64,000 bases of DNA, taken from the NCBI GenBank assembly GCA_005116835.1, contig SWDM01000016.1, forward strand, positions 593,105 to 657,104, read 5' to 3'. The stretch comes from Nitrospira sp. (GTDB lineage Bacteria > Nitrospirota > Nitrospiria > Nitrospirales > Nitrospiraceae). The position numbers were made by a program, and so were the translations under genes. This document shows positions 5,283 to 46,550 of this stretch, one piece after another (the stretch's first letter is position 1; every line of letters starts with the position of its first letter). Under the pieces are notes generated by a model, which searched no databases, was not told where the DNA came from, and was given only the letters and a program-made list of their open reading frames with translations.

Positions 5283-5525
5283 ATGACTTCTACTCTCTAT
5301 ATTCTCCGACAACAGCCTAATGTGATTTCTCCCGCTCTCTTTCAACAAGATGAAGCTGATACGGAGGTTGTTTTTATTGAACAAGCCTTTCCAATGCCCT
5401 CTTTCGGTATCAAAGGATCGATTGTCTCTGATGAAAAAGTGGCAGGAGGAGGTTCTGTTCCAACAATGACGTACGATGACCTTGTAAAGAAAATTTTTTC
5501 GTTCGACCATACTGTTGTTTTATAG
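5283..5525 (+). CDS. DsrH/TusB-like small protein
   Basis: 80 residues. The N-terminus MTSTLYILRQQP and the acidic C-terminal segment MTYDDLVKKIFSFDHTVVL resemble DsrH/TusB proteins, the smallest member of DsrEFH/TusBCD heterohexamers. The usual conserved cysteine of DsrH is not seen, so sulfur transfer by this subunit is uncertain. Gene order (DsrE-like, TusC-like, DsrH-like) supports the call more than sequence does. Low G+C like its two upstream neighbours. It is followed by the putative origin region. Confidence 0.55.
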   Translation: MTSTLYILRQQPNVISPALFQQDEADTEVVFIEQAFPMPSFGIKGSIVSDEKVAGGGSVPTMTYDDLVKKIFSFDHTVVL

Positions 5526-5860
5526 AGGTATAACCAGCTCTTCTCTTAATATTATGGTCTATTAAAGAGAATTAGTCGTAGGAGTAGGGATAGTAGTAGG
5601 CACAGTGGATACTGTGGATTAAGACCAACGAATTGAATTGAATGGTTTATTTATACTGTGTCTTTGTGAAGAGGGCTGGGGGTTGACTCTGGGTAACCAC
5701 TGCATGCAGAGTCAATAGCCTGTGGAAACCAATACAACGGCCATCTGACTATTCGGTTAGTCGCCGGAAGATGATTCTGTTAGATGAAGAAAAACCACAT
5801 GAAAAACCAGGTTATCAACAGGTGTGTATAACTCTGTGAATAGACAATGATACGTAGACT
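5526..5860 (+). other. putative replication origin region upstream of dnaA
   Basis: A 335-base gap without genes, just upstream of dnaA. DnaA-box-like 9-mers are TTATCAACA at 5812-5820, and on the other strand GTTTCCACA (5721-5729) and TAATCCACA (5613-5621), each one or two mismatches from TTATCCACA. An A+T-rich segment at about 5627-5656 could serve as the unwinding element. A 9-bp inverted repeat is described separately. Position next to dnaA and clustered boxes are the basis; origin activity is inferred. Confidence 0.6.
5683..5715. repeat. inverted repeat inside the putative oriC
   Basis: TTGACTCTG (5683-5691) and CAGAGTCAA (5707-5715) are a perfect 9-bp inverted repeat around a 15-base centre. 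The centre overlaps an 8-bp palindrome, TGCATGCA, at 5701-5708. It could be a cruciform, a binding site for an initiation regulator, or an operator of dnaA. Confidence 0.6.
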
Positions 5861-7207
5861 ATGACAACGTTAAGCGTATGGCAGGATACCTTGGCTTATA
5901 TCCAAGGGAAGGTGCCCAAACAGGTCTATGAAACGTGGTTTGTTCCGATTCACCTTGAACGGATTGAGGAATCTACCGCTCAGGTCGGCGTCCCGAGCAA
6001 GTTCTTTGGCGACTGGCTACGCCAACACTATGGATCTCTCCTCACCGAGGCTGTCTCCGCCGCGCGAGGTGGAGAAGAGACCGAAATCGTGTTCGTCATT
6101 CCCCATAAGCAGGATTTGAAAGAGCAGGAGGAGAGCGGGCCTTCCGTTGGCACTGGTCGCGCCAACACCGGGGCGCGAGCGAAACGAGGAATCCAGCTCA
6201 ACCCAAGGTATACATTCAAAAGTTTCGTCGTCGGCGCAGGAAACCAGTTTGCCCATGCCGCCTGCATGGCGGTCGCCGAGCAGCCGGCGAAGGCCTATAA
6301 CCCCCTCTTTATCTATGGGGAAACAGGACTGGGAAAGACGCACCTCTTGAATGCCATAGGAAATTATGTGGCGGAGCGAACCGACCTCCGAATTGCCTAT
6401 TTGACGACAGAGCAGTTTACAAATGAGGTGATCAACTCCATTCGCTACGACAAAATGATGGATCTGCGGAAGCGGTATCGTCATATCGATATGTTGATGA
6501 TCGACGACATTCAATTTTTGGCGGGGAAGGAACGGACGCAGGAGGAATTCTTCCACACGTTCAATGCGCTCTATGAAGCGCACAAACAGCTCGTTCTCTC
6601 GAGCGACCGCTTTCCGAAGGATATGCCGGATATAGAGGAACGGCTGCGGTCACGGTTTGAATGGGGACTGATCGCAGATCTCCAGCCGCCGGACGTGGAA
6701 ACCAGGATCGCCATCTTGCGGAAAAAGTCCGAGGACGAGGGTGTCACGTTGCCGGTCGATGTGATCCAGTTCCTCGCCACGACGATGAAAAGCAATATAC
6801 GAGAACTTGAAGGATCGCTGGTGCGGCTCGGCGCCTATGCCTCGCTGACCGGACAAACGATCACACTGGAGATGGCCAAGAGCGTGCTCCGGGATTTGAT
6901 CGGCTCGAAGAAAAAGATCGTGTCGATGGATGACATTCAGGAAACAGTGGGCGCGCGATTCCATGTCAAGATCGCCGATTTGAAATCCCGTCGCCGGAGT
7001 AAGATGCTCGTGCATCCGAGACAGATCGCCATGTATCTCTGCCGGGAATTGACGGACTCATCCTATCCGGAGATCGGGCGGCAGTTTGGAGGCAAAGACC
7101 ACACGACGATCATCCATGCCTGCAAGCAGGTCATCAAAGCGAAGGATAACGACAGTGCCTTGAGTGCCACATTGGACAGCTTACGGGAGCAGATCCTGCG
7201 AGCGTGA
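5861..7207 (+). CDS. dnaA: chromosomal replication initiator DnaA
   Basis: 448 residues with all four DnaA domains. There is an N-terminal helicase-loading domain (WQDTLAYIQGKVPKQVYETW), a variable linker around 85-110, and an AAA+ ATPase with Walker A GETGLGKT and Walker B MLMIDDIQFL. The C-terminal DNA-binding domain has the DnaA signature SRRRSKMLVHPRQIAMYLCR and GGKDHTTIIHA. It opens the origin by binding DnaA boxes in its ATP form. Start ATG 5861 fits the family N-terminus. dnaN starts 25 bases downstream. Confidence 0.98.
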   Translation: MTTLSVWQDTLAYIQGKVPKQVYETWFVPIHLERIEESTAQVGVPSKFFGDWLRQHYGSLLTEAVSAARGGEETEIVFVIPHKQDLKEQEESGPSVGTGRANTGARAKRGIQLNPRYTFKSFVVGAGNQFAHAACMAVAEQPAKAYNPLFIYGETGLGKTHLLNAIGNYVAERTDLRIAYLTTEQFTNEVINSIRYDKMMDLRKRYRHIDMLMIDDIQFLAGKERTQEEFFHTFNALYEAHKQLVLSSDRFPKDMPDIEERLRSRFEWGLIADLQPPDVETRIAILRKKSEDEGVTLPVDVIQFLATTMKSNIRELEGSLVRLGAYASLTGQTITLEMAKSVLRDLIGSKKKIVSMDDIQETVGARFHVKIADLKSRRRSKMLVHPRQIAMYLCRELTDSSYPEIGRQFGGKDHTTIIHACKQVIKAKDNDSALSATLDSLREQILRA

Positions 7208-44206: not shown

Positions 44207-44556
44207 GGGGGCGACCGGAATCGACGGGGATACTAACGTCAGCGGTGCATGTCGAGCTCTCGGGGTCTCGTAAATCCTCCGGGAAAATGTAACTGCCAAT
44301 CAAGAACTGGCACTCGCAGCTTAATTAACTGCGACGTTCCTCCACCTGAGGCCCGCGGGGGTGGAAGGAGCGCGATACAGCGGGCTGGTCCAAAGCTGGT
44401 GCTCAGCGGCTGAGGACGAGACAATACTGGGCTAGTGGCCAGTCTAAGCTAGCCGGTGGGCGTGGGTGGCTGCGAAATTAAAACGATCGGCTACACATGT
44501 AGATCCGTTGTGCGGAAGGTCTTCGGACCCGGGTTCAACTCCCGGCGCCTCCACCA
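44207..44556 (+). ncRNA. ssrA: tmRNA (SsrA), one-piece
   Basis: The 5' end GGGGGCG pairs with CGCCTCC near the 3' end, which finishes ACCA, giving the tRNA-like acceptor stem. GACCGGAATCGACGGG is the conserved 5' region and GGGTTCAACTCCC the T arm. The tag reading frame at 44295-44324 encodes ANQELALAA followed by TAA and then TTAA. It rescues stalled ribosomes with SmpB (14966). The mature length is about 350 bases. Confidence 0.96.
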
Positions 44557-45648: not shown

Positions 45649-45768
45649 CCTTCAATATTTCTGAGCACTTCGGCTGCATCTGGTCTCGCCATTCGGTCGG
45701 TTAACCACTGTTTCACGTATGCCTCCCTCCCGTCGTAGGCTCGGCTCTGAATCCTGCCTCGCCCACTC

Positions 45769-45851
45769 CTCCAAGGGGGCCAACCCCCTTGGAGTATCCC
45801 CACGAAGGGGGCGCACCCCCTTCGTAACTCCCAGGCGGAGAAACCCCGCCT
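45769..45851. repeat. cluster of three tandem hairpins
   Basis: Three near-perfect hairpins in 83 bases: CTCCAAGGGGG/CCCCCTTGGAG with loop CCAA (45769-45794), ACGAAGGGGG/CCCCCTTCGT with loop CGCA (45802-45825), and AGGCGG/CCGCCT with a 7-base loop (45833-45851). Stems are G+C-rich with 4-base loops for the first two. Confidence 0.75.
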
Positions 45852-46070
45852 CACAGCTCCGCGCGCCGGTTGCTCATGGCGACTGCGCGATTTCGCGACG
45901 AACCGTCATGCTGACTAGATGATATTAGAGAGGGCCTAGCTCCAGGCAGGTTCTAACTCTCGCTGCGGTCATAACGGCGTATGTCTTTCGAAATCACTTC
46001 GCTCGTGCTCGGCATTTGTAGCAGGTACGTTTTATGCCAGACGAATCGGCAAATAAAAATGATTTCTCCA

Positions 46071-46099
46071 TTGACACGATTTTCTAATGGGCGTATGAA
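46071..46099 (+). promoter_or_regulatory. canonical sigma-70 promoter of an orphan transcript
   Basis: TTGACA at 46071-46076 and TATGAA at 46094-46099, exactly 17 bases apart, in an A+T-rich setting. No protein gene follows on this strand before the permease, which is encoded on the opposite strand. Confidence 0.65.
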
Positions 46100-46105
46100 A
46101 AACCT

Positions 46106-46526
46106 ACGGCCCATTCATTCACTCGATAGGGGGACTGGACAGGGTGCGTTACTGTCAACGGGTTCCCCCGCCAACTTTCCAAGAGAGGAGGGTAGCGATG
46201 GATGACTTGACTCCACCTGGCCACTCAGGCCCGCCGATTCGAGGGCGGGCTGCTGATCGGTCGCGCTAGCTGGTTCTCCACTGGCTGTGTCGTAACGGCA
46301 CTACAACCAACAAGGCTATAGCCTTATACGTGATGGAGAATTCGACGCTGGCGCGAGGAACACAAGCGCCTGGGATGATTTCGTTTCCCCCGATTAGTTG
46401 CCGATGCTTTTGATATCGTGCGGGCCTCAGTTTTCGTTGGGCCGCGACAATCTCATAGCTGACTTGGCGTCCTAAGCGCCAAGAACGGGCGACCTCCCAC
46501 CTAGTGCAGGGTCGCCCGCTTCTTTT
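46106..46526 (+). ncRNA. candidate structured non-coding RNA (or small-peptide transcript)
   Basis: Runs from the promoter at 46071 to an intrinsic terminator at 46486-46526, about 420 bases. Visible structure: GGGGGA (46129-46134) with TCCCCC (46164-46169) enclosing GACAG/CTGTC; GCCCGCC/GGCGGGC at 46229-46250; a 14-bp palindrome AAGGCTATAGCCTT at 46312-46325; CTTGGCG/CGCCAAG at 46463-46483. A 23-codon frame at 46198 (MDDLTPPGHSGPPIRG and on) follows a strong ribosome site, GAGAGGAGGGTAGCG. I could not match it to RNase P, 6S, SRP RNA or a known riboswitch. Confidence 0.5.
46486..46526 (+). terminator. intrinsic terminator of the orphan transcript
   Basis: CGGGCGACC (46486-46494) pairs perfectly with GGTCGCCCG (46510-46518), followed by CTTCTTTTT. 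This is the clearest Rho-independent terminator in the window. Confidence 0.8.
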
Positions 46527-46550
46527 TCGCATCACTCTCAAGCGCAGTAA

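Follow-up and report, generated by a model that had tools for sequence, protein, structure and literature searches.

A candidate translation-gated regulatory RNA with a conserved proline-pair reading frame in the order containing Nitrospira

SgrS/SgrT and RNAIII are dual-function small RNAs. 6S RNA is long and rod-like, present in one or few copies and wide within its clade, and it is not known to carry a conserved reading frame. Control by leader peptides has so far, to our knowledge, been tied to a downstream gene. Among nitrite oxidisers Nitrospira dominate, and the complete ammonia oxidisers also belong to them. In the Salmonella mgtA and mgtCBR leader RNAs, the proline-rich frames mgtL and mgtP lie early in a structured RNA and control its structure through EF-P, the speed of translation at the prolines setting the fold (PMC6460261). 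According to Choi et al. (2017, PNAS), as cited in PMC6460261, the released mgtC leader RNA acts in trans. VcdRP of Vibrio cholerae is a stand-alone regulated sRNA gene with a Shine-Dalgarno (SD) sequence, a short ORF and a structured non-coding part; its small protein acts by binding an enzyme, and its RNA part by base-pairing with mRNAs (PMC8672173). Translation is known to pause at PPG and PPD in an EF-P-dependent manner; in vivo, many PPX motifs cause no pause (PMC4140641).

Here we describe a stand-alone transcription unit, read from the sequence at 46071-46527 of a 64,000-nucleotide stretch (the window) of a comammox Nitrospira genome, with a promoter and a terminator at its ends (Table 1). 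That the genome is comammox follows from its amoC genes. We are highly confident that the unit is a real, conserved and structured RNA gene with a translated short frame, and this gene is previously undescribed. An earlier note on this DNA had proposed a candidate new structured RNA with a small frame, and the proposal is borne out by the promoter-terminator unit, the conservation of fold and codons, and the lack of an Rfam match.

The RNA shares with the mgt leaders a short proline-codon ORF early in a structured transcript. However, it has no downstream gene in the transcript, ends at its own terminator and is unrelated in sequence, and it conserves pairs of prolines where the mgt leaders have spaced ones. 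With VcdRP it shares the stand-alone gene, the SD and short ORF and the structured part, whereas its ORF length is not conserved, unlike that of dual-function sRNAs, and the RNA is longer and forms a closed rod. With 6S RNA it has in common a long rod, a low copy number and a broad spread within its clade, but no 6S model matches it. Dual-function RNAs such as VcdRP are the nearest kind: the conserved promoter and terminator and the convergent or varying neighbours indicate an independent transcription unit, and the short ORF shows the signature of codon-level selection. A conserved co-directional downstream gene, as in an attenuator, was not found.

Table 1. Features of the RNA locus, in window positions, and the related amoC ends elsewhere in the genome.
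Feature	Position	Strand	Basis
Upstream inverted-repeat motif GGTACGTTTTATGCC	46024-46038	+	relatives vs shuffles
Promoter: -35 TTGACA, 17-nt spacer, -10 TATGAA	46071-46076 (-35), 46094-46099 (-10)	+	sequence, relatives
Operator-like inverted repeat AATGGGC ... GGCCCATT around -10/start region	46086-46115	.	type I relatives
RNA, about 420 nt, inferred +1 at ~46106	46106-46527	+	promoter spacing, P1 start at 46107, terminator
Closing helix P1 (46107-46112 with 46439-46444)	46107-46444	+	99.2% of cells paired, 42 sequences
5' hairpin P2, CGCGCG-like loop	46129-46169	+	covariation in 6/9 pairs
Shine-Dalgarno AGGAGG	46186-46191	+	conserved in 74 loci
23-codon ORF MDDLTPPGHSGPPIRGRAADRSR and stop; order-wide core M-x-D-x-[T/S]-P-P-[G/D]	46198-46269	+	codon conservation
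Long rod P4, apical hairpin 46287-46301	46228-46426	+	covariation
Hairpin P5	46372-46389	+	covariation analysis
Hairpin P6 GGCGUCCUAAGCGCC	46466-46480	+	near-invariant in family
Intrinsic terminator P7 and U-tract	46486-46527	+	sequence, 42-sequence alignment
amoC 3' ends with P6-P7 (L129, L130)	G000:C10:365127-365186, G000:C16:270928-270983		P6-P7 model

The promoter had been called textbook. Both hexamers and the 17-nt spacer are indeed present, but the word fits only the -35 element: TTGACA and ..GCGTA are conserved in the aligned relatives, while TATGAA varies. Type I copies also keep ..AATGGGCGTA, and order-level members retain TTGACA and usually a (G)CGTAG-like element. At the other end, the intrinsic terminator is present as a hairpin, CGGGCGACC...GGTCGCCCG at 46486-46518, followed by TTCTTTTT; with GGCGTCCTAAGCGCC at 46466-46480 it makes up the two-hairpin 3' end that had been described. 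The 14-bp palindrome AAGGCTATAGCCTT exists at 46312-46325 but is not conserved in relatives. A simple promoter and terminator scan listed neither element, because position 6 of the -10 is not T and the terminator loop is longer than 8 nt. We rejected a larger TTGACA-N15-GCGTA promoter regulon in this genome, which gave 34 matches against 45 for a reversed-pattern control.

Two further repeats lie at the 5' end. The operator-like repeat is conserved in type I relatives and not in type II, and its right arm doubles as the 5' strand of P1. The upstream motif is near-palindromic (GGCAT-N5-ATGCC); its family form, GG[CT]A[CT]-N5-ATGC[C], occurs in 45 of 69 relatives against a shuffle mean of 0.15, mostly 46-51 nt before TTGACA, and within the end of the preceding gene in part of one clade. 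It is probably an activator site of some regulator, a reading that we favour because the spacing to the -35 is fixed. Alternatively, it resembles a degenerate sigma-54 promoter, GG[CT]A[CT]-N5-ATGC being one base off the sigma-54 element GGCAC-N5-TTGC (-24/-12) as well as palindromic.

The RNA strand has a minimum free energy of -182 kcal/mol, compared with -152.6 (sd 6.5) in 100 dinucleotide shuffles (z = -4.5). We derived a consensus with RNAalifold from alignment A8, which comprises 42 type I sequences from two clades, and counted 82 pairs. Paired cells amount to 97.5%, against 40-44% in slid controls (partners displaced by 1-3 columns), and two-sided changes occur in 30/82 pairs (shuffle mean 14.2, slid controls 8-15); the structure comes from the same alignment as the test, which biases it favourably against the slid controls. 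The covariation score is 0.220 compared with 0.152 in shuffled alignments, and 0/500 shuffles score as high. Thus, the predicted fold of the RNA is supported by covariation. In the long rod, 19 of the 33 pairs in four stem segments changed on both sides, and the P6 stem changes compensatorily to GGCA/UGCC in some order-level members. P2 is missing from two type II copies and is not seen in f2-family members. A further helix, P3, is predicted between the SD and codons 6-7 (46213-46218); it is invariant and hence gives no covariation signal.

The 23-codon frame with an excellent ribosome site picked out in the earlier note is present behind AGGAGG, and its codons are conserved. Across 74 loci the ATG is invariant, the SD is kept and no stop falls within codons 1-14. 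Codon differences between sequences lean conservative or synonymous: at differing codons among codons 2-14 the mean BLOSUM62 is 1.54, compared with -0.47 (sd 0.53) after shuffling columns within codons (0/1000 as good) and -0.05 after shuffling them over all (5/1000 as good), and with order-wide sequences codons 2-8 reach 2.30 against -0.10 (sd 0.65; 0/2000 shuffles). Residues D3, T/S5, P6, P7 and G/D8 are nearly invariant, and the PP codons are invariant in 42 representative sequences. PP[G/D] thus occupies codons 6-8, and GPP follows at codons 11-13 in most family members and is lost in some f3 members. Because CCNCC, the sequence of the PP codons, is able to pair with the SD as well, their conservation could be partly structural. 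The length of the frame is variable, with 23 codons in most type I and several type II copies, 14 in others including several genera, 19 in frameshifted copies, and 8 or 9 in another family, where two members encode MQDFTPPD and MTDLSPPKK, each followed by a stop. Within the frame, conservation is confined to the first 8-14 codons. A longer protein on either strand is open in single genomes, but indels after codon 14 are nearly all of 1 nt; in line with the initial view that the unit holds no normal gene, there is no longer conserved ORF and many 1-nt indels lie downstream among relatives.

We compared genomes at increasing depth. A DNA search of 25 genomes of the genus found 21 full-length homologues; apart from the window, they are 76-91% identical. 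Sixteen genomes from other genera of the order gave no homologue. A sequence model built on the ORF region (R2) matched 30 of 32 genomes of the genus and, in the family, 151/175 genomes from 14/22 genera. With a deeper model (R3, E up to 0.01) the order yielded 190/216 genomes and 33/36 genera, and 139 of its 153 high-quality genomes carry the RNA. Just 8 genomes outside the order passed in a phylum sample, all at E 4e-4 to 0.01, and we read these as threshold-level chance matches; a model of the 3' part (R1), run on a sample of 245 genomes, matched none beyond the order. The SD-ORF module is conserved throughout the order containing Nitrospira, and its presence in nearly every genome suggests that the RNA matters for fitness. 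An exact 3' pattern was found in 60 contigs among 84,980 named genomes, labelled Nitrospira, Nitrospiraceae or Nitrospirota/Nitrospirae save for one MAG labelled Nitrosospira. N. moscoviensis NSP M-1 is among them and carries the RNA (L105, L160), so that in this cultured strain the question is directly testable.

Searches of known families gave no relative of the RNA. It remained below gathering in cmscan with Rfam 15, and six relatives were likewise without a match. Nor is it RNase P or 6S RNA, in agreement with the earlier note: neither RF00010 nor RF00013 matches at the locus, and both match elsewhere in the genome. A full RNase P match lies at G000:C16:132551-132978. A sub-threshold 6S match of 38 bits at G000:C11:142806-142875, with a score consistent across the genus, is probably the unannotated 6S RNA of this group. 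A housekeeping RNA is ruled out by the Rfam search and by these matches. A Pfam search with the peptide gave no match and no viral contig in IMG/VR carries the RNA; with the type I copies syntenic, we also rejected a mobile element. Among the papers searched for small or non-coding RNA in Nitrospira or comammox bacteria, none dealt with RNA regulation in them.

The type I place is conserved, with parB, pterin dehydratase, permease or GDPD genes on one side and varied genes on the other (names are our reading of translated sequences, not database assignments). The flanking gene is often convergent, as is the permease that comes next in the window. In another family of the order, a pterin dehydratase gene lies upstream and an FtsK-like gene downstream. 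No gene was consistently found downstream in the same direction, and neighbours differ between clades. Many genomes carry a second copy, and by sequence the RNA belongs to a family with paralogues, with one or more copies per genome. The type II paralogue of the window's genome (G000:C4, about 5470-5925, L128) encodes MADLSPPDHNRPSS before its stop and lies about 3 kb from a glnA-like gene; another type II copy (L025) is directly beside glnA. Tandem divergent copies about 0.5-1.4 kb apart occur in genus g22 and one further genus (L148, L149, L155, L162) and encode different peptides of 14-23 residues, for example MDDSTPPGPYGPPK and MEELTPPDQNGPQT in a g22 pair.

The 5' strand of rod P4 contains ORF codons 11-23 and the stop. 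To complete the frame a ribosome must therefore open the rod, and in this model translation and full folding of the RNA would compete. The act of translation is favoured over a folded product as the object of selection, because ORF length varies and the PP stays. We propose, as a tentative reading that may well hold, that this is a trans-acting regulatory RNA gated by translation of a PP leader peptide. Ribosomes would load at the SD and pause at the conserved proline pairs; a pause at codon 7 would leave the ribosome just short of the rod, whereas a run to codon 23 would melt the lower part of the rod. The state of translation (proline supply, EF-P activity or general ribosome speed) would then set the fold, and with it the activity of the RNA. 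The proposal draws on the overlap of ORF and rod, the variable ORF with its fixed PP, and the precedents of EF-P pausing and mgtL/mgtP.

A micro-mRNA, in which the 14-23 residue peptide is what matters and the rest is a structured 3' UTR stabilising or regulating the message, would also account for conservation of the first codons at the amino-acid level. It would likewise suit the many type I and type II copies, from two clades, that keep 23 codons and end alike (..R.S[CR] before the stop). We consider this rather unlikely, given the frames of 8-9 codons in another family and 14 in several genera, the tolerated frameshifts in the tail, and a covarying structure that far exceeds the ORF in size. 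A regulatory RNA of structural or housekeeping type, for instance a protein-binding rod like 6S RNA with an ORF that just tunes folding or stability, would suit an order-wide, vertically inherited RNA of about 420 nt closed by P1 around a long rod. It is improbable in view of the amino-acid-level selection on the ORF and because this genome has its 6S-like and RNase P matches at other loci. The short proline ORF followed by a terminator is also the classical layout of an attenuator of the next gene, which is nevertheless very hard to sustain here: the permease is convergent in the window and neighbours change between clades, which argues against a leader role, and the members examined have kept their P6-P7 hairpins.

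A link to ammonia oxidation comes from these 3' hairpins. In the window's genome the strongest matches of a P6-P7 model were the two RNAs (type I and type II) and the 3' ends of two amoC genes, and the double hairpin likewise ends amoC in other comammox genomes. Type II/III RNAs adjoin amoC and a CBS-domain gene: amoC with its P6-P7 precedes the type II RNA in G045, and a short-peptide RNA, the CBS-domain gene and the type II RNA are adjacent in G004, G047 and G042. P6-P7 could thus be a regulatory handle on both the RNA and the amoC mRNA, the RNA acting on ammonia-monooxygenase messages or sharing a factor with them. There is only a slim chance of this, since most members are in genomes without a seen amo link, including N. 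moscoviensis, and recombination leaving an RNA terminator behind amoC explains the sharing. G019 has the order amoC, P6-P7, degenerate RNA, CBS gene (L173), and the window's genome amoC, P6-P7, CBS gene; the simplest history would be that an RNA copy once lay downstream of amoC and its terminator was retained.

Returning to translation gating, a broader and more doubtful version is that the RNA represents a new class of autonomous riboregulator, order-wide and without an attached gene. Its active fold would be set by ribosome pausing at the conserved PP leader peptide, and in trans it would report the state of translation or of EF-P; in comammox Nitrospira it would have become wired to ammonia oxidation genes. 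If true, a length-variable PP frame conserved at the amino-acid level would extend leader-peptide control to free regulators.

Some features near the locus are recorded here for completeness. A tmRNA gene (44207-44556, tag ANQELALAA) lies 1.5 kb upstream of the RNA; in N. moscoviensis the tmRNA is 1.2 kb upstream of the ORF, and it is within 1.2-5.3 kb in a few other genomes, which suggests that the neighbourhood is old. Two tandem perfect GC-rich hairpins, CTCCAAGGGGG/CCCCCTTGGAG and ACGAAGGGGG/CCCCCTTCGT, stand at 45769-45825, far above chance, and are followed by a third of GGCGG/CCGCC type, all between a SUMF1-like gene and the RNA. The only hit of a sub-threshold Rfam scan of the stretch, an HDV-like match at 45753-45826 (E 1.3) outside the RNA, is a chance product of two GC-rich hairpins. 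Finally, a contig labelled 'uncultured Nitrosospira sp. isolate CMX' (L083, CAADGK010000056.1) carries the Nitrospira RNA and probably belongs to a mislabelled comammox Nitrospira genome.
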